A program made the translations under genes and the position numbers. Below the pieces are notes generated by a model. It did not search any database. It saw only the letters and a program-made list of their open reading frames with translations, and was not told where the DNA came from. A DNA stretch of 55,870 nt from Pseudochrobactrum sp. sp1633 (GTDB lineage: Bacteria; Pseudomonadota; Alphaproteobacteria; Rhizobiales; Rhizobiaceae): assembly GCF_030376605.1 (NCBI RefSeq), contig NZ_JARRAE010000018.1:1-55870 (forward strand), given 5' to 3'. The first letter of the stretch is position 1. Every line of letters starts with the position of its first letter. Shown one piece after another: positions 48-27,535 of the stretch.

Positions 48-893
48 TTACAAAGCCTGAAATGCGCTTGTCAGACGGCGCAAGACAGAAGTCACGCGCT
101 CACCTGTAACATTGGAAATAATCACCACATCACGGTTCGGCAAAGGCGGCAGGTTGATTTTATCGCTGATCTCAATCAGATGCGATGGTGCCGCCTTATG
201 TGCCAGCAATGCCACTGCCAATCCGGCCTCCGCAGCCGCAGCTACAGATATAGCACCGGTTCCGACAAAAGCTTCGCGCCATGATATTCCTGCTGCTTCC
301 AGCGCTTTGAGCGCCATAGCACGCAGGTTACAAGGCTCAGGCTGGATTGCGAGCGGTAACGGGGTTCCTTTCGGCATGGTGAAATCCGGTGCTGCAAACC
401 AGCCAAAACTTTCAGTCATTAAAACTTCACTATCACGCCGGCTTTCATCATGACGCAAAACAACCACAGCATCCAGATCACCGGCATCATACAAATCCAG
501 CAAAGCTCTGGTGCCGGCCGTGCGTAGATGAAGCGCCACACCGGTTTCGCGTTCATTTACAAAATGCAGTAATCTTGGCAGGTTCGGGCCAACTAGATGA
601 TGCGTTATGCCGATGGAAAGGCGGGCAGGTGTTTCAGCAAAAATTTCTGCTGCACGGCGTCCTGCTGCCACAAATGCTCTGGCAGGCTCCAGAAAATGCG
701 CCCCGGCAGCGGTAAGGCGAACATGCCTTGGCGTGCGTTCTAACAAACGCTGGCCTAATGCTTCTTCTAACCGGCGCAGACGCAGCGAGATAGCAGCCTG
801 CGTTGTGTTAAGCGCACCGGCAGCCCGTGTGAAAGACTGCAACTCGGCAACGAGGAGAAAGGCTTCAACCGCCTCAGGAACAAGCAACTGCAT
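48..893 (-). CDS. LysR-family transcriptional regulator
   Basis: DNA-binding regulator of about 281 residues, a little shorter than the usual 290-310. The N-terminal winged helix-turn-helix (about residues 1-60) has the typical LysR pattern: AFLLVAELQSFTRAAGALN, then a recognition helix with TQAAISLRLRRLEEALG and the LLERT segment. The rest matches a periplasmic-binding-like effector domain. The ATG at 893 is preferred, with a TTG two codons upstream as alternative; neither has a good ribosome binding site. It is transcribed divergently from an MFS transporter 100 bp away, so by LysR convention it probably controls that transporter. The effector cannot be read from the sequence. Confidence 0.9.
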   Translation of the reverse strand: MQLLVPEAVEAFLLVAELQSFTRAAGALNTTQAAISLRLRRLEEALGQRLLERTPRHVRLTAAGAHFLEPARAFVAAGRRAAEIFAETPARLSIGITHHLVGPNLPRLLHFVNERETGVALHLRTAGTRALLDLYDAGDLDAVVVLRHDESRRDSEVLMTESFGWFAAPDFTMPKGTPLPLAIQPEPCNLRAMALKALEAAGISWREAFVGTGAISVAAAAEAGLAVALLAHKAAPSHLIEISDKINLPPLPNRDVVIISNVTGERVTSVLRRLTSAFQAL

Positions 894-993
894 AACCAAT
901 CATAAAAAATTGTTATCATTGAAATATAGAAACACATCTTTCTGATTATGTTACTCCAAGGCTAACTGAGAGCACAACAGGAAATGTTTTCTT
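894..993. promoter_or_regulatory. Divergent LysR/MFS promoter region
   Basis: A 100-bp AT-rich spacer between the divergent LysR and MFS genes. An imperfect inverted repeat (ATAACCAAT near 892-900 against ATTGTTAT near 912-919) spans the LysR start and could be the LysR binding site, but one arm has a gap. AGGAAA about 10 bases before the ATG at 994 is the likely ribosome binding site of the transporter gene. Confidence 0.4.
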
Positions 994-2238
994 ATGTCTC
1001 AGTCCGATACACAAATCGATTCCCGCGCTTTATCTGCCACGCCCTATATATGGAATATCCTTGCAATTGCAGTCGGCACCCAGGCCGCAGGCTCTATTGT
1101 TTCGCAGGGCGTTTATATTCTTGTTCCGTTTTGGCGCGAGGCCTTTGGTATTACGCTTGCTTCTGCATCACTTGCTGTAACGGTGATGAACGGCGTACAA
1201 ATTGCAACAATGTATAGTTTTGGCCGCGCGATCGACACCTATGGCGAGCGCAAAGTCGTCAGCCTTGCCATGCTTGGTATGGCTCTGGCCATGACAGCTG
1301 CCGCCGCCTTTGCCGAAAACCTGATAGTCCTGTTGATTTGCATGGCTTTTCTGGGCGGCACCTATGCAGCAGTCCAACCAGGCGGAACGCGGGCGATTAT
1401 GCGTTGGTTTCCGCCAAACCGCCGCGGAATTGCAACAGGCTTCCGACAGGCTGCTGTTCCTTTCGGCACCATGATTGCCGCAGCTGTGCTGCCCTATTTC
1501 GCTGTGCGCTATGGCTGGCATATGGCCGCGTGGATTGGTGCCGGTGTTTCCTTATTCGGCGCCCTGCTCTTTTGGGGATTATATCGGGAAGGCAATATGG
1601 TTACCGCGAAAGCCGCTGCCCCTCTCCCGCTCAAAACCCTTATTCAAACCGTGGGGAAAGAAGCTAATTTCTGGCCGGTGCTGCGGCTCGGCATTGCCAT
1701 GTCTGCTTTTCAGTTTACATTTACCGCACATGTTATCAGCTATTTAGTCGATCATTTTGGACTTAGTATTGTTGTTGCAGCTTCTCTTTTCGCCGCAACG
1801 CAGTTTGCGGGCATACCCGGCCGCGTATTGCTGCCCTGGCTGAGTGACCACTATCGCCCTTCGCGTCGCGCGCACTCTCTGGCTGTAATTTCCCTGATGG
1901 CCGCAGGCACTGCCGTGATATTGGCACTCTTGCCAACCAATGTGCCATTGCCGGTTGTGCTGGGTGTTCTCGTTGTGCTGGGGCTTTTCGGAATCGGATG
2001 GTTTCCGCTCTACTTGTTAGAAATAGCAGAGGCTGCACCTAAAAGCTCAATTGTGTCCACGGTAGCGTTTGCCTCAACGATCTGTCTCGCTGTTATGGCG
2101 CTTGGCCCTTATATATTCGGGCTGATCGCAGATAACTTTGGCTATGAATTTGCCTGGGCTGCTTTAATATTGCCGGTGCTGATTACAGGCTGTCAGCTTT
2201 TACCGCGGCGCGCTTCTCTGAACAGCGACAGCATTTAA
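994..2238 (+). CDS. MFS transporter
   Basis: Integral membrane protein of 414 residues with about 12 hydrophobic segments, the usual length for the major facilitator superfamily. The loop between helices 2 and 3 carries a degenerate MFS signature (GRAIDTYGERKV), and a charged RWFPPNRRGIATG loop follows helix 4, as in many organic anion or drug permeases. The substrate cannot be assigned. It is a single-gene transcript facing the LysR gene and ends at a strong hairpin terminator. The divergent LysR is the likely regulator. It could be an uptake carrier or an efflux pump. Confidence 0.88.
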   Translation: MSQSDTQIDSRALSATPYIWNILAIAVGTQAAGSIVSQGVYILVPFWREAFGITLASASLAVTVMNGVQIATMYSFGRAIDTYGERKVVSLAMLGMALAMTAAAAFAENLIVLLICMAFLGGTYAAVQPGGTRAIMRWFPPNRRGIATGFRQAAVPFGTMIAAAVLPYFAVRYGWHMAAWIGAGVSLFGALLFWGLYREGNMVTAKAAAPLPLKTLIQTVGKEANFWPVLRLGIAMSAFQFTFTAHVISYLVDHFGLSIVVAASLFAATQFAGIPGRVLLPWLSDHYRPSRRAHSLAVISLMAAGTAVILALLPTNVPLPVVLGVLVVLGLFGIGWFPLYLLEIAEAAPKSSIVSTVAFASTICLAVMALGPYIFGLIADNFGYEFAWAALILPVLITGCQLLPRRASLNSDSI

Positions 2239-6447: not shown

Positions 6448-7328
6448 TGGCATTGCTCAACAACAGATCATTACAATTCTGGTCAGAATTTAAGCGTCAT
6501 CCGGTACCGGTTATCGCTGCTTTGGTGGTGCTCACCATTATTTTTCTGGCGGTGTTTGCGCCGTTGATTGCACCACAAGATCCTTATGATCTTTCAAGTC
6601 TGGTCTTGCGGGACGGACGCCGTGCCCCCGGCTATATTGGCCAAGGCGGCTATATCCATATTCTGGGTACTGACGGTCAGGGACGCGATCTTTTCTCGGC
6701 CATTCTTTACGGTTTGCGCATCTCGCTGGAGATGGGTTTACTTGCAGGTACCATCGCTTTTGCCATCGGCGCATTAGTCGGCTCAACGGCTGCCTATGTC
6801 GGCGGACGGTTCGAAGCTTTCATCATGCGCGTCATCGACCTCCAGCTTTCCTTTCCGGCAATTTTGCTGGCCTTTGTGGTGGCTGCCTTGCTCGGACAAG
6901 GCAAAAGCCAGCTGATTATTGCTCTGGTCTTTTCGCAATATGCTTATTTTGTCCGCACAGCACATGGTGCAGCAGCGGCGGAGCGCAATAAAGACTATGT
7001 GGAAGCAGCACTCTCTGTGCCGATGAGCGGCTGGTTCATTGTTACCCGCCATATTCTGCCCAATGCCATGCCGCCGCTGATTGTTGTGGCAACGGTTCAG
7101 GTCGCCTCGGCGATTTCACTGGAAGCAACACTGTCCTTCTTAGGCGTTGGCCTGCCGCCGACAGAGCCTTCCCTTGGTATGCTCATTTCCAATGGCTTCC
7201 AATATTTGCTGTCCGGCCGCTACTGGATTGCGATTTATCCGGGCGTTGCTCTGATCATTCTCATCATGGCGATCAATCTTGTTGGCGATCAAATCCGCGA
7301 CCAGCTCAATCCGAGGTTGAACAAATGA
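6447..7328 (+). CDS. ABC transporter permease, DppC type
   Basis: Second permease of the heterodimer, 293 residues. It shows the DppC/OppC pattern: first membrane helix followed by APLIAPQDPYD, the LGTDGQGRDLFS motif, five further helices, an EAA-like loop (AALSVPMSGWFIVTRHILPN) and LEATLSFLGVGLPP. The start codon overlaps the stop of the preceding permease by one base (TAATG), and the stop overlaps the next start (ATGA). Substrate specificity resides in the binding protein encoded at 2290-3867. Confidence 0.94.
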   Translation: MALLNNRSLQFWSEFKRHPVPVIAALVVLTIIFLAVFAPLIAPQDPYDLSSLVLRDGRRAPGYIGQGGYIHILGTDGQGRDLFSAILYGLRISLEMGLLAGTIAFAIGALVGSTAAYVGGRFEAFIMRVIDLQLSFPAILLAFVVAALLGQGKSQLIIALVFSQYAYFVRTAHGAAAAERNKDYVEAALSVPMSGWFIVTRHILPNAMPPLIVVATVQVASAISLEATLSFLGVGLPPTEPSLGMLISNGFQYLLSGRYWIAIYPGVALIILIMAINLVGDQIRDQLNPRLNK

Positions 7329-10777: not shown

Positions 10778-12544
<1,767 letters not shown>

Positions 12545-12575
12545 AATATTCTCCGGGAGCCAGGCTTTTATGATC

Positions 12576-12938
12576 TCAGCAGGCGGCGTAAGCGCGAATT
12601 TCAACCGCGCAATCCCGCCGTGCAGCATGACCTGTTACGACCGACAGTGCAGGCACCCCTTCAGGATCAATCCAGTCATTCCACAACTCACAAAAAGCAT
12701 CATATTCGCTGATGTCGAACAGCCAGACCTGAACCATAAGAATGTCTTTACGGGACGCACCGACACTCTGAAAATAGTCGTCAATAATATTCAAAATCTG
12801 CAAAGACTGCTCTTTAACGTCACCGGATTTATCCGGAGCTGTCAGGCAGACGGATGCAAGTTTATCTGATGCTTTGCCGAGGCAAATTCTCGGCTGATGC
12901 CCTGCCCCGTCGATCCGGCCAAGCTCTCTCAGTTCCAT
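12576..12938 (-). CDS. RidA/YjgF-family protein, atypical (conserved Arg replaced)
   Basis: Protein of about 120 residues with the chorismate-mutase-like RidA fold pattern, including the VKEQSLQILNIID helix and the LMVQVWLFD strand. At the position of the RidA catalytic arginine (PARxxV) it reads PALSVV, so arginine is replaced by leucine; the later Glu (VEIRAYA) is kept. Classical enamine/imine deaminase activity is therefore doubtful, and it may belong to one of the Rid subfamilies without the arginine. The ATG at 12938 has GGAGAG upstream; a TTG at 12950 is less likely. It lies between a typical RidA gene and the ABC ATPase gene in one operon. Confidence 0.88.
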   Translation of the reverse strand: MELRELGRIDGAGHQPRICLGKASDKLASVCLTAPDKSGDVKEQSLQILNIIDDYFQSVGASRKDILMVQVWLFDISEYDAFCELWNDWIDPEGVPALSVVTGHAARRDCAVEIRAYAAC

Positions 12939-22595: not shown

Positions 22596-23882
22596 TTATA
22601 CCGGTGGCAGTGACAGATGCCCGCGCAGTGTATCCGTTTGATACTCCGTGCGGAACAATCCCCGCTTTTGCAGAACCGGCACCACCTGATCGACAAAATC
22701 CTCGATATCTGAAGGCAAGGACGGCGGCATCAGATTAAAGCCGTCAGCCCCATCATTGCGCCACCAGTCTTCCATCCGGTCCGCGATCATCTCCGGCGTG
22801 CCGACCATCGTGCAGTGTCCGCCACCTGCTGCCAACCGACCAAGCAGCTGGCGCAGTGTCGGCTGCTCGCTCCTGATAATCCGCAGAACGGTTGCATAGC
22901 GCCCTTTGGGCCCTGTGAAGTCTTCCAGCGGTGGCAAGGCAGGCACCGGCGCATCCAGTTCCCAGCCGGAGCAATCCTGTGCAATAAAGCTCTCCAGCTG
23001 GCGCAGTGACGTTGCAACAGGCAACAATTCATCCAGCGCCTGCTGCTTGGCTTTTGCCTCAGCCTGTGTGGAGGCCACATAGGTCACCAGCCCCGGCATC
23101 ACCGGAATACCTTTCTCCCGACCCGCCAGTTTGGCACGCCGTTGCATATCACGGTAATAGTCTTGTGCTGCCTCAAGGTCATAGGCAACTGCATAAATTG
23201 CCTCGGCCTTTGCGGCGGCCACTGCCCTGCCCTCCTCCGAGGCTCCGGCCTGAAACAGCACCGGATGCCCCTGTGGTGGGCGTGGAATGGTCAAAGGCCC
23301 CTGTGTTGAAAAATGCTCGCCCTTGTGGTTGACCGCCCGCACCTTGTCTTTGCAGGCATAGTCACCGTGACGGTCATTGATCACTGCATCAGCATCCCAT
23401 GAATCCCACAATTTCTGCACGGCATCGATGAACTCTGTTGCACGGCCATAGCGCCATGCATGAGGCGGCATGGCATCATAACCATGATTGCGCGCCTCAC
23501 TGTCAAACATCGACGTGACCACATTCCAGCCGATACGACCCTTCGATAAATGATCGAGCGAGGCCAGTGTACGCGCCGCATGGAACGGCGTGGTGAACGT
23601 GCTGGAGACCGTGCTGATAAGGCCGATTTTCTCTGTTGCGCGGGCAAGCGCTGCCAGCAAAGTCAGCGGGTCGAAATAGCTGCGCGGCCCGTCCGCAATA
23701 TTATCGATTGCATGCCAGTCGGCGAAGAAAATCGCATCAAATTTGCCGCGCTCGGCGGTTTGCGCGAGGCTTTCGTAATAACGTGCATCATTGAGCCGCT
23801 CTATTGCCGATGCAGGATGGCGCCATGCAGCACGGTGATGCCCGCAGCCGAAGATAAACAGATTGAGGTGCATTTCCCGCAT
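22596..23882 (-). CDS. NtaA/SnaA/DszA-type FMN-dependent monooxygenase
   Basis: Flavin-dependent monooxygenase of 428 residues in the bacterial-luciferase-like superfamily. It has the group's segments: an N-terminal HHRAAWRHP block, FDAIFFADW, TEKIGLISTVSSTFTTPFHAAR, DHLSKGRIGWNVVTS, and the GHPVLFQAGASEEGR block. Such enzymes use FMNH2 from a separate reductase to oxidise amines, sulfonates, thioethers or nitrogen heterocycles. The ATG at 23882 overlaps the preceding SDR stop by one base (TGATG), so the two are coupled. The operon sits behind a TPP riboswitch, suggesting a role tied to thiamine or one of its fragments. The substrate is unproven. Confidence 0.92.
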   Translation of the reverse strand: MREMHLNLFIFGCGHHRAAWRHPASAIERLNDARYYESLAQTAERGKFDAIFFADWHAIDNIADGPRSYFDPLTLLAALARATEKIGLISTVSSTFTTPFHAARTLASLDHLSKGRIGWNVVTSMFDSEARNHGYDAMPPHAWRYGRATEFIDAVQKLWDSWDADAVINDRHGDYACKDKVRAVNHKGEHFSTQGPLTIPRPPQGHPVLFQAGASEEGRAVAAAKAEAIYAVAYDLEAAQDYYRDMQRRAKLAGREKGIPVMPGLVTYVASTQAEAKAKQQALDELLPVATSLRQLESFIAQDCSGWELDAPVPALPPLEDFTGPKGRYATVLRIIRSEQPTLRQLLGRLAAGGGHCTMVGTPEMIADRMEDWWRNDGADGFNLMPPSLPSDIEDFVDQVVPVLQKRGLFRTEYQTDTLRGHLSLPPV

Positions 23883-24661
23883 CAGTTTTTCACCAAGCCA
23901 CCGTCCACAACCAGATTTTGACCGGTCACAGAACGCGCCCACGGCGAGGCAAAAAATAGAGCTGTATCAGCGAATTCCGCAGGCGTGGTTACACGGCGCA
24001 ACGGCGTGGCAGAGGCGATATAATCAAACACCGCTTCCGGTGTTGCAGCCGACGCATCAGTCGTGCGCAGCAAACCACCGGACAGCATATTGACGGTGAT
24101 ATTCTTCTCGCCCAGATCTTGCGCAAGTGTGCGGGTCAACGACAACAGAGCAGCCTTTGCCGCCGTATAATCGTGATAAGGTACCACCGGATTTTGAAAC
24201 AGGTTGGTACCGATATTGATGATGCGGCCGAAACCGGCTTTTTCCATCCCTGCCAATGCTGCCTGTGTGGTGTTGAGCGTACCACGCACAATACCCTCCA
24301 TCTGCTGATTTATTTGCTCCCAGCGGATCACATCGGCATGGGCGCGGGCATCGCCGTTGAAGCTGAAAGCAGGTAGCGCATTGTTCACAACAGTCGTGAC
24401 CGGCTTGCCGAAATGCTGCTCTGCGCGGGCAAACATGGCCTGTACAGCTGCAGGGTCTGTCACATCTGCCTGCACGGCCAGTGTTTTTTCCGGTGCAAGC
24501 TCTGCCAGCTCTGCCGCTGCATCAGCACTGTTGAGATAGTTGATCACAACATTTGCACCCTCGCCCAAAAATGCTTTGACGAGATCGCGCCCCAGACCGC
24601 GCGCGCCGCCGGTGACAAGTACGAGTTGCTGACGGAGTGACAGTGTAACAGGATCAGACAT
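23882..24661 (-). CDS. SDR-family NAD(P)-dependent oxidoreductase
   Basis: Short-chain dehydrogenase/reductase of 259 residues. It has the TGGARGLG nucleotide motif near the N terminus, NNAL in place of NNAG, YTAAK at the active site and a C-terminal TGQNLVVDGG. The catalytic serine position appears to be threonine (IGTN), a substitution worth noting. The ATG at 24661 has AAGGGAA upstream; an earlier in-frame ATG lies inside the riboswitch leader and is unlikely. It is the first gene after the TPP riboswitch and is coupled to the FMN monooxygenase gene. Confidence 0.92.
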   Translation of the reverse strand: MSDPVTLSLRQQLVLVTGGARGLGRDLVKAFLGEGANVVINYLNSADAAAELAELAPEKTLAVQADVTDPAAVQAMFARAEQHFGKPVTTVVNNALPAFSFNGDARAHADVIRWEQINQQMEGIVRGTLNTTQAALAGMEKAGFGRIINIGTNLFQNPVVPYHDYTAAKAALLSLTRTLAQDLGEKNITVNMLSGGLLRTTDASAATPEAVFDYIASATPLRRVTTPAEFADTALFFASPWARSVTGQNLVVDGGLVKN

Positions 24662-24668
24662 GATAGTT

Positions 24669-24700
24669 CCCTTGCCTAAAAGAATACGGACGGCAAAGGG
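24669..24700 (-). promoter_or_regulatory. Possible Shine-Dalgarno-sequestering hairpin (riboswitch expression platform)
   Basis: In the mRNA, CCCUUUGCC (24700-24692) can pair with GGCAAGGG (24676-24669), the latter containing the ribosome binding site of the SDR gene, with one bulged base. This would let ligand binding in the upstream aptamer control translation. Confidence 0.45.
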
Positions 24701-24740
24701 AGATATGAGCATAGACCGCATGAGATACGGTTTGGCTGCA

Positions 24741-24823
24741 CAGACATCCCTTCGCCAGTATGAGCTGGATCAGGTTCAACGGGTTTAAAATCTCAGCCCT
24801 GCAAAACAGGACACCCCGTGTCA
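24741..24823 (-). ncRNA. TPP riboswitch (THI element)
   Basis: On the minus strand the conserved THI-box elements appear in order: CGGGGTGTCC, GGCTGAGA, ACCCGTTGAACCTGATC, and ACTGGCGAAGGGA. The outer P1 helix can form from GACA (24823-24820) and TGTC (24745-24742). The CTGAGA and GAACCTGATC cores match the thiamine pyrophosphate aptamer closely. It lies about 80 bases before the SDR start, in the leader of the SDR/FMN-monooxygenase operon. Confidence 0.93.
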
Positions 24824-24907
24824 TTCGGATCAGGCTTAGCAAGTTTAATTGCAGCGGACAAGCCTTCCGCGGTTGTCCTGTTGACCTAAGCTGGTTTAAG
24901 AAACCCT

Positions 24908-25984: not shown

Positions 25985-27535
25985 TCAGATCATCGCTTCG
26001 ATCAGGAACGGGCCTTTGCGTTTGCTGGCTGCGGCAAACAAATCAGCAAACTGTTCAGCCGTTGTGGCGCGTGCGCCTTCAACACCAACACCTTTGGCAA
26101 GGCTCACCCAGTCAATCGTCGGCTCGACCAGATCGAACATGCGCTGCGCATTGCGTCCCGGTGCACCGGCACCGACATTCTGCAATTCGCCATGCAAGAT
26201 CGCATAACGCTGATTAGCAAAAATGACGGTGATGATATTCAGGTTCTCGCGGGCATGTGTCCACAGTGCCTGCATCGTATACATACCACTGCCATCAGCC
26301 TGCAAAGCAACGACCTGACGATCCGGACAGGCCACAGCCGCACCGGTTGCCAGCGGCAGACCGATACCAATTGCACCACCGGTCAATTGCAGAAAATCAT
26401 GCGGCGCTGAATTATGCGTCAGCCCGAACATTTCACGACCGGATGTAATGGATTCATCAACGATAATCGCATTTTCCGGCAGGAGTGACGCAACAATCGC
26501 GCTGATTTTATCATCATCGAGCGTGCCGGTCGGCATCACTTTCTCACCACGCTGATTGAGCAATGGAGTAACAGATGCCGGAATGTTCATTTCATCGGCC
26601 AGCGCCTGCAAGGCGTAAAGCTGGTCGTCGGCTTCACCGGCATAATCAACCACAGCGCAGCCTTCCGGCAGGAAAGTGCTAGGTTTGCCCGGATAGGCAA
26701 AGAAGGCGACCGGAATTTTAGCACCGAGCAGCACAACCTGTTCAATATCTGCCAGATCGGCCAGTGCATCATCCACACGATAGAGCACACGATTAACCGT
26801 AACACGCCCTGCTCCGCGTTCAATACGGCCATTGGATTGCTGCGCCTGAATGCGTGCACCAGTGCTTTGAGCAATGCGGCTGGCGATTTCCAGCGCATTG
26901 GCACGCAGAGCAAGATTGCCAAGCAGGATGAGCGTGCGCTTACCATTGCGCAATGCCTGAGCTGCTTCACGTACGGCCTCCGCATCAACTTTACGACGCT
27001 CCGGACGGATCAAAGGCTGCACAATTTGCTGCGGTGCTTCTGTCCATGCGGTATTGGCAGGCAGGATCAGCGTTGCCACCTGTCCCGGTGCATTGCAGGC
27101 CGCGGCAAAAGCTTCAGCCGTATCTGCCGAAATATCATCAGCGGATTTCGAGGTTTTAACCCAGCCGGAAACCGGACGCGCCAGCGATTCAATATCACTG
27201 GTCAGCGGTGCATCATATTTCAGATGATAAGTGGCATGATCGCCGACAATATTCACAATCGGTGTCTTGGCACGTTTCGCATTGTGCAGATTGGCAACGC
27301 CGTTACCAAGACCGGAACCCAGATGCAGCAAAGTTGCTGCCGGTTTATCCGCCATACGGCCATAGCCGTCCGCGGCACCTGTTACCACGCCTTCAAACAG
27401 GCCCAGCACGCAGCGCATCTGCGGCTTGCGATCCAGCGCCGCCACAAAATGCATTTCAGATGTGCCCGGATTGGCAAAACAGACATCGATCCCGTGCGCC
27501 AGCAGGGTGTCGCAAAGGCTATCAGCACCGTTCAT
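25985..27535 (-). CDS. TPP-dependent acetolactate-synthase-like enzyme
   Basis: Thiamine-diphosphate enzyme of 516 residues, somewhat shorter than biosynthetic IlvB/IlvG (about 560-590). It has the N-terminal PYR domain with the catalytic glutamate (GLFEGVVTGAADGYGRM), a central domain, and a C-terminal PP domain with ADGSGMYT and FANQRYAIL as the cofactor motif. No small regulatory subunit or other branched-chain gene is nearby, so a role in valine/isoleucine synthesis is doubtful. Decarboxylation of a 2-ketoacid, as in benzoylformate decarboxylase relatives, is equally possible. GGGAGTGAGAA precedes the start. It is a single-gene transcript. Confidence 0.88.
   Translation of the reverse strand: MNGADSLCDTLLAHGIDVCFANPGTSEMHFVAALDRKPQMRCVLGLFEGVVTGAADGYGRMADKPAATLLHLGSGLGNGVANLHNAKRAKTPIVNIVGDHATYHLKYDAPLTSDIESLARPVSGWVKTSKSADDISADTAEAFAAACNAPGQVATLILPANTAWTEAPQQIVQPLIRPERRKVDAEAVREAAQALRNGKRTLILLGNLALRANALEIASRIAQSTGARIQAQQSNGRIERGAGRVTVNRVLYRVDDALADLADIEQVVLLGAKIPVAFFAYPGKPSTFLPEGCAVVDYAGEADDQLYALQALADEMNIPASVTPLLNQRGEKVMPTGTLDDDKISAIVASLLPENAIIVDESITSGREMFGLTHNSAPHDFLQLTGGAIGIGLPLATGAAVACPDRQVVALQADGSGMYTMQALWTHARENLNIITVIFANQRYAILHGELQNVGAGAPGRNAQRMFDLVEPTIDWVSLAKGVGVEGARATTAEQFADLFAAASKRKGPFLIEAMI

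Follow-up and report, generated by a model that had tools for sequence, protein, structure and literature searches.

A reductase-monooxygenase gene pair behind TPP riboswitches as a candidate salvage module for the pyrimidine half of thiamine

The classical operons for thiamine salvage (thiMED, thiXYZ, and thiBPQ) are controlled by thiamine pyrophosphate (TPP) riboswitches. A riboswitch of the same class precedes two overlapping genes in a 55,870-nucleotide (nt) stretch of Pseudochrobactrum sp. sp1633 (contig NZ_JARRAE010000018.1; hereafter the window), one encoding a short-chain dehydrogenase/reductase (SDR) and the other a luciferase-like monooxygenase (LLM) that depends on flavin mononucleotide (FMN). 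Neither protein is among the classical thiamine enzymes, as the initial annotation of this region recognized, but in six loci thiM-thiE-thiD operons end in an SDR of the same family.

Three described systems resemble parts of this locus or of related operons. TenA, which acts in the TenA/YlmB salvage system, is the known route from aminomethylpyrimidine (AmMP) to 4-amino-5-hydroxymethyl-2-methylpyrimidine (HMP), the pyrimidine half of thiamine. By sequence, the LLM belongs to the two-component flavin monooxygenases of the NtaA/DmoA family, which includes YtnJ/CmoJ, the nitrilotriacetate (NTA) and EDTA monooxygenases, DszA, and riboflavin lyase; unlike other members, the SDR-paired LLMs form a clade of their own under TPP riboswitches. 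The LuxC-LuxE fatty acid reductase has counterparts in sister SDR operons, where a ligase resembling LuxE occurs together with a reductase resembling LuxC, but these copies lie under TPP riboswitches, mostly with ThiZXY-type genes, and do not occur at the window locus. A link of this SDR to thiamine may already be in print: Rodionov et al. in 2002 reportedly named a THI-element-linked reductase OarX, which may be the SDR family described here (NF006393). Our literature search, with most subscription papers outside its reach, returned no account of an SDR-LLM pair, of a LuxE-LuxC-SDR operon, or of an aldehyde reductase role, and the passages searched in two riboswitch surveys describe neither the pair nor the LuxE-LuxC operon (PMC3766115, PMC2211319). 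The product proposed below, HMP, is also that of the TenA/YlmB system, and the starting compounds, formylaminomethylpyrimidine (FAMP) and AmMP, may be the same (PMC10470507). The TenA/YlmB route is hydrolytic, whereas an oxygenase and a reductase are proposed for the window pair, and TenA (PF03070) was detected in none of 11 genomes, including that of the window, by a model that matched 7 of 14 control genomes.

A role of the SDR-LLM operon in thiamine supply is well supported, and we class the finding as TPP-controlled salvage of a thiamine precursor by unrecognized enzymes, which agrees with the earlier view that the pair may salvage or convert a fragment of thiamine. The riboswitch, the gene families, their operon linkage and phylogenetic spread, the ThiC/ThiG pattern, and the lack of TenA in 11 genomes are shown by the analysis; the direction, substrate, product, and chemistry of the pair are what we infer. 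Our preferred reading, held tentatively and at a little short of even confidence, is a TPP-repressed operon for salvage of the pyrimidine half of thiamine, in which the LLM generates an aldehyde that the SDR reduces to HMP.

The riboswitch is the sole Rfam match in the window that reaches its gathering score, and it aligns to RF00059 over the full length of the model (E, 1.2e-11; Table 1). The RF00059 check that had been proposed for the locus was thus positive; the four core THI-box motifs noticed on the minus strand are present, the suspected P1 helix is paired in the Rfam alignment, and the aptamer placed at 24741-24823 is real, with an extent slightly wider than first drawn. By rough arithmetic based on 4 sites in a 3.9-Mb genome, the chance of an RF00059 match ≤300 bases upstream of a given gene and on the same strand is about 1.5 in 10,000. 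Between the aptamer and the SDR, one sequestor arm is common to two alternative pairings, which are mutually exclusive because both use this arm; each pairing is possible in all eight leaders compared, which come from close relatives (the window, L016-L020, L024, and L077). The segment 3' of the aptamer folds better than shuffled sequences (z, -2.44), and the whole leader only slightly better (z, -1.56). From these pairings, the leader is predicted to be an OFF switch acting on SDR translation. At low TPP, the 3' strand of the aptamer would bind the arm and leave the SDR ribosome site free; with TPP bound, this strand would be held within the aptamer, and the arm would cover the ribosome site, turning off both overlapping genes. 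TPP binding and repression by the aptamer are putative, being predicted from sequence and pairing energies.

Table 1. Features of the riboswitch-SDR-LLM locus in the window
Feature	Position	Strand	Details
TPP riboswitch aptamer (THI element)	24730..24828	-	RF00059, 69.5 bits; gathering score, 54.3; model positions 1-105
Aptamer 3' strand ACTGGCGAAGGGA, alternative partner of the sequestor arm (predicted ON state)	24747..24759	-	Duplex, -18.6 kcal/mol
Sequestor arm TCCCTTTGCC, common to the predicted ON and OFF pairings	24692..24701	-	Leader pairing analysis
SDR ribosome-binding stretch GGCAAGGGAA, masked through pairing with the arm (predicted OFF state)	24667..24676	-	Duplex, -14.8 kcal/mol
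SDR, NF006393, proposed pyrimidine aldehyde reductase	23882..24661	-	259 aa; 426 bits; cutoff, 292
LLM, NtaA/DmoA-family FMN-dependent monooxygenase, proposed aldehyde source	22596..23882	-	428 aa; TIGR03860, 525 bits; cutoff, 279.7

The identification of the downstream genes as an SDR and an NtaA-type monooxygenase holds at the family scores in Table 1, and their coupling through TGATG is as first read, with the stop codon of the SDR at 23884-23882 overlapping the start codon of the LLM at 23882-23880 by one base. The conserved SDR start is the ATG at 24661; the longest listed open reading frame begins upstream, at 24721. The next-best SDR of the same genome reaches just 130 bits against NF006393. 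NCBIfam names this family 3-oxoacyl-acyl carrier protein (ACP) reductase, and the operon context argues against that activity. The active-site tyrosine and lysine lie in the motif YTAAK, with threonine at the serine position, and the nucleotide fold has NY, and no acidic residue, at the end of its second strand, an arrangement that suits NADP(H). Preceding the catalytic lysine, every one of the 22 LLM-type SDRs has the motif PYHDYT, as do 7 of the 10 SDRs from LuxE-LuxC operons (LuxEC-type; among the remaining three, one has PYHEYT and two have PYPDYA); five other SDRs of the window's genome lack it. Because the motif is shared by LLM-type and most LuxEC-type SDRs, the sequences suggest a common substrate. 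The TIGR03860 match covers the LLM over its full length, the nearest solved relatives are YtnJ/MoxC (E, about 2e-88), and relatives by sequence also include the dimethyl sulfide monooxygenase; oxygenation dependent on reduced FMN (FMNH2) would be the expected activity. No flavin reductase gene is present among the annotated neighbors of the pair. Near the riboswitch operon, at 25985-27535 (minus strand), the window encodes an enzyme that resembles acetolactate synthase and has TPP-binding domains (NF005760, PF02775/PF02776); such a gene also lies in the plasmid locus of Pseudochrobactrum sp. XF203.

The genome survey suggested for this gene pair bore out its association with TPP riboswitches. 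We compared 22 SDR-LLM pairs: the window, L016-L025 (10 of 31 loci with LLM homologues), the plasmid loci L077 and L078, and nine survey loci (L092-L095, L097-L099, L103, and L106). A TPP riboswitch lies directly upstream of 20 of the 22 pairs, of which 19 reach the Rfam gathering score and one (L077) was recognized by model R1; in L023 and L025, the sole riboswitch found between the genes serves a divergent symporter gene. Besides the window, 7 of the 22 pairs are near-identical Pseudochrobactrum-like loci and are nonindependent. One of the Pseudochrobactrum-like loci, L018 (JAHREI010000003.1), has the same leader and an SDR and LLM that are 93% and 87% identical to those of the window, in a record titled Bacillus subtilis SK6B4 that is probably mislabeled or contaminated.

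Pairs occur in Brucellaceae (Alphaproteobacteria), in Burkholderiales, and in Rhodococcus-type Actinomycetes, a spread that suggests horizontal transfer. The pair is rare in the window's own order, since the best match to the LLM beyond the window's genome, in a sample of 297 genomes that includes it, is only 48% identical. The SDR-paired LLMs form a single clade with support of 100/100 (21 rows against 23 other homologues, two of which, L096 and L112, are distant and not adjacent to an SDR). The tree omits L095, whose LLM matches over 129 residues only; this LLM (6584-6970, minus strand) may be truncated, and its genome, G1045, carries two SDR copies (L095 and L099). Among the more distant LLM homologues (L026-L046; <50% identity), neither an adjacent SDR of the NF006393 type nor a TPP riboswitch was found, the latter by pattern and by model R1, with Rfam not applied. 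An SDR of 37% identity in L046 does not adjoin its LLM and was excluded from the SDR tree.

The SDR recurs behind TPP riboswitches in operons that lack the LLM. At a threshold of E ≤ 1e-80, and counting the center genomes of the searches among the positives, the SDR is present in 7 of 385 Alphaproteobacteria, 9 of 394 Actinomycetes, and 12 of 399 Burkholderiales. Of 27 survey neighborhoods (own genome and G303 excluded), 20 have an RF00059 match at the gathering score on the upstream side and in the same orientation, and two more have weaker matches to model R1 (L114, 36.9 bits; L100, 18.4 bits, E 0.018). Sixteen plasmid records contain the SDR; nine were opened and eight scanned with Rfam, six of which have the riboswitch. 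Three operon types result: riboswitch-SDR-LLM, riboswitch-thiM-thiE-thiD-SDR, and riboswitch-LuxE-LuxC-SDR. The thiM-thiE-thiD type comprises the six loci mentioned above (L081 and L087-L091), whose SDRs form one clade (support, 100/98). A Burkholderiales clade of SDRs (L079, L080, L102, L104, and L105; support of 99 on a quick tree) is solitary, without an LLM and with no riboswitch found nearby.

All 10 loci of the LuxE-LuxC type (L108-L117) have this arrangement, and their SDRs cluster with support of 92/87 and are 39 to 47% identical to the window SDR. Their LuxE and LuxC were confirmed with Pfam in L108, L109, and L114 and traced with tblastn in the other loci. Because several of these SDRs straddle the NF006393 cutoff (271 to 301 versus 292 bits), we regard the LuxEC-type SDRs as a sister branch. 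ThiZ-ThiX-ThiY-type genes, whose products are described as pyrimidine precursor transporters (PMC10881298), are present in seven of the 10 operons (not in L108, L110, or L111). The most complete arrangement is that of L116 (genome G1340), which reads, in one direction, riboswitch-thiD-luxE-luxC-thiZ-thiX-thiY-SDR-thiE-flavin adenine dinucleotide oxidoreductase-thiG. ThiC was looked for in G1340 and none was found; the module stands in the place where ThiC would be needed. In L109, a second TPP riboswitch (12541-12650, minus strand; 60.2 bits) lies about 5 kb past the operon on the opposite strand, and in L112 a distant LLM (43% identical; 812-2101, plus strand) lies just 5' of the operon's riboswitch on the same strand.

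The distribution of ThiC and ThiG points to the half of thiamine that the SDR module serves. In 37 SDR genomes scored for both proteins (ThiG threshold, >300 bits), 18 contain both, nine neither, none ThiC only, and 10 ThiG only; the SDR-negative controls were scored for ThiC alone. These 10 have operons of the LuxE-LuxC type (G624, G701, G535, and G1340), of the LLM type (G973, G778, G308, and G298), or with an SDR without LLM (G825 and G928). G624 is a single-contig genome, and the lone ThiG of G298 sets it apart from five close relatives. Because ThiG is kept where ThiC is missing and never the reverse, the SDR module would act for the pyrimidine, and this pattern and the operon neighbors together suggest HMP as the product.

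These neighbors include a symporter gene, arranged head to head with the pair and preceded by a TPP riboswitch of its own, at six of the loci (L021, L022, L023, L025, L103, and L106). Two head-to-head riboswitches share one intergenic region in L021 (4887-5153), L022 (4890-5156), L103 (6541-6946), and L106 (7877-8161). The symporter, a candidate ThiV-type pyrimidine transporter, was identified as a member of the sodium:solute symporter family (PF00474) in L022 and by tblastn, or as the query, in the other five loci. ThiV, a sodium:solute symporter, is listed among pyrimidine transporters (PMC10881298) and termed an HMP transporter (PMC12637900).

The genome of the window is 99.96% complete and has four RF00059 matches, of which the other three precede thiBPQ-like, thiM-thiE-thiD, and thiXYZ-like genes (the last at 51.2 bits, marginally below the cutoff). 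It encodes ThiM, ThiE, ThiD, and thiamine pyrophosphokinase domains; searches of this genome for ThiC, ThiG, and TenA found none. From this gene content, the cell is predicted to require an external supply of both thiamine halves, or of thiamine.

The chemistry that we propose draws on the relatives of each enzyme. In luminescence, a carboxylic acid activated by LuxE is reduced by LuxC to the aldehyde. Because the SDR is located at the end of LuxE-LuxC operons, it would most simply be the final aldehyde-to-alcohol reductase. The relatives of the LLM include YtnJ, also named CmoJ. Since cleavage of a C-S bond by CmoJ gives rise to an aldehyde (PMC10863075), the LLM plausibly oxidizes a pyrimidine methylene and frees an aldehyde for the SDR. 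With FMNH2 and O2, the LLM would attack the methylene adjoining nitrogen or sulfur in a pyrimidine that has been imported or is damaged, for instance FAMP, AmMP, or another adduct, and oxidative dealkylation would release 4-amino-2-methylpyrimidine-5-carbaldehyde. One candidate substrate is FAMP, which arises from the degradation of thiamine and is exploited by marine microbes (PMC10470507). The SDR would use NADPH to reduce the aldehyde to HMP, which ThiD and ThiE would convert to thiamine phosphate; in other bacteria, LuxE-LuxC would take the place of the LLM and make the same aldehyde from a carboxylic acid. Somewhat more tentatively than the operon reading itself, we suggest that these operons represent an undescribed modular HMP pathway, in which one TPP-controlled aldehyde reductase is combined with one of two exchangeable front ends: an NtaA-type monooxygenase, freeing the aldehyde from N- or S-linked pyrimidines, or a LuxE-LuxC unit, reducing a pyrimidine carboxylic acid.

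Several observations weigh against pyrimidine salvage by the pair. ThiC is present in 9 of 19 tested SDR-LLM genomes, including four of the Alcaligenaceae type, so carrying the pair does not imply HMP auxotrophy, which is common in any case. A general loss of ThiC in SDR genomes was looked for and not found: among the surveyed SDR genomes 14 of 26 have ThiC, compared with 33 of 54 controls lacking the SDR; by group, the corresponding values are 0 of 6 and 10 of 18 in Alphaproteobacteria, 4 of 9 and 9 of 18 in Actinomycetes, and 10 of 11 and 14 of 18 in Burkholderiales, such that Alphaproteobacteria alone, represented by few lineages, depart from the controls. The window's genome lacks ThiG as well as ThiC and does not by itself favor the pyrimidine. 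The LuxE and LuxC copies score far under the Lux equivalog cutoffs (69 of 550 and 94 of 750 bits), and acid reduction by them is presumed by analogy. No riboswitch was found near L101, L102, L104, L105, and L107 (5 of 27 survey loci), and Rfam detected none at either Caballeronia plasmid SDR locus. Finally, the SDR tree neither recovers the LLM-type SDRs as one clade nor rejects a single origin for them (p-AU, 0.076).

The same observations can be read in other ways. The SDR could make the thiazole alcohol (HET), or thiamine, from a side-chain aldehyde or acid, with the LLM feeding the aldehyde; this would still be a TPP-repressed supply route. The HET kinase ThiM heads the thiM-thiE-thiD-SDR operons, and the window's genome has ThiM and neither ThiG nor ThiC. 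We consider it unlikely, given that 10 of the 37 SDR genomes keep ThiG without ThiC and none the reverse, that thiG and thiE belong to the same operon as the L116 module, in whose genome no ThiC was found, and that seven of the 10 LuxE-LuxC operons include genes of a type described as pyrimidine precursor transporters (PMC10881298). The initial annotation had offered oxidation of a thiazole or side-chain alcohol as an example, and the retention of ThiG without ThiC, which points to the pyrimidine, turns the argument away from it. In its broader form, with the SDR as a dehydrogenase of a thiamine-derived alcohol and the LLM oxygenating the product in a conversion or breakdown, this proposal can appeal to the general reversibility of SDRs and to the oxygenase family of the LLM; the predicted OFF switch fits supply and not breakdown, the SDR lies downstream of a LuxE-LuxC unit that would supply an aldehyde for reduction, and the NY strand end suits NADP(H), all of which make it improbable.

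Hardly more credible, and if anything slightly less so, is the removal, at low TPP, of a toxic antimetabolite or damaged pyrimidine. Bacimethrin, a natural HMP analogue that enters through HMP transporters (PMC12637900), is such a compound, which might be demethylated or opened by an oxygenase; against this, the SDR occurs without the LLM in operons for synthesis and salvage, alongside ThiM, ThiE, ThiD, and ThiG, and enzymes converting an acid to an aldehyde would be needless for detoxification. The least credible alternative, and a very improbable one, is that a catabolic SDR-LLM operon captured a riboswitch by chance or that the SDR functions in fatty acid metabolism as the name 3-oxoacyl-ACP reductase implies. 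The family name and the riboswitch-free SDR loci (L079, L080, L101, L102, L104, L105, and L107) are what speak for it. Chance capture was rejected because 20 of the 22 pairs, and two further operon types, are linked to riboswitches, a recurrence across three bacterial groups and three types of operon.

HMP auxotrophy is described as the most prevalent thiamine auxotrophy (PMC12637900). If pyrimidine salvage by the SDR-LLM pair is right, the module would provide missing enzymes for some thiamine-requiring bacteria, would predict new vitamin B1-related compounds, and would give a function to an SDR family currently named for 3-oxoacyl-ACP reduction. If the modular pathway also holds, oxidized and adducted pyrimidines would constitute a usable pool of vitamin B1 precursors, on which some bacteria without ThiC would live.

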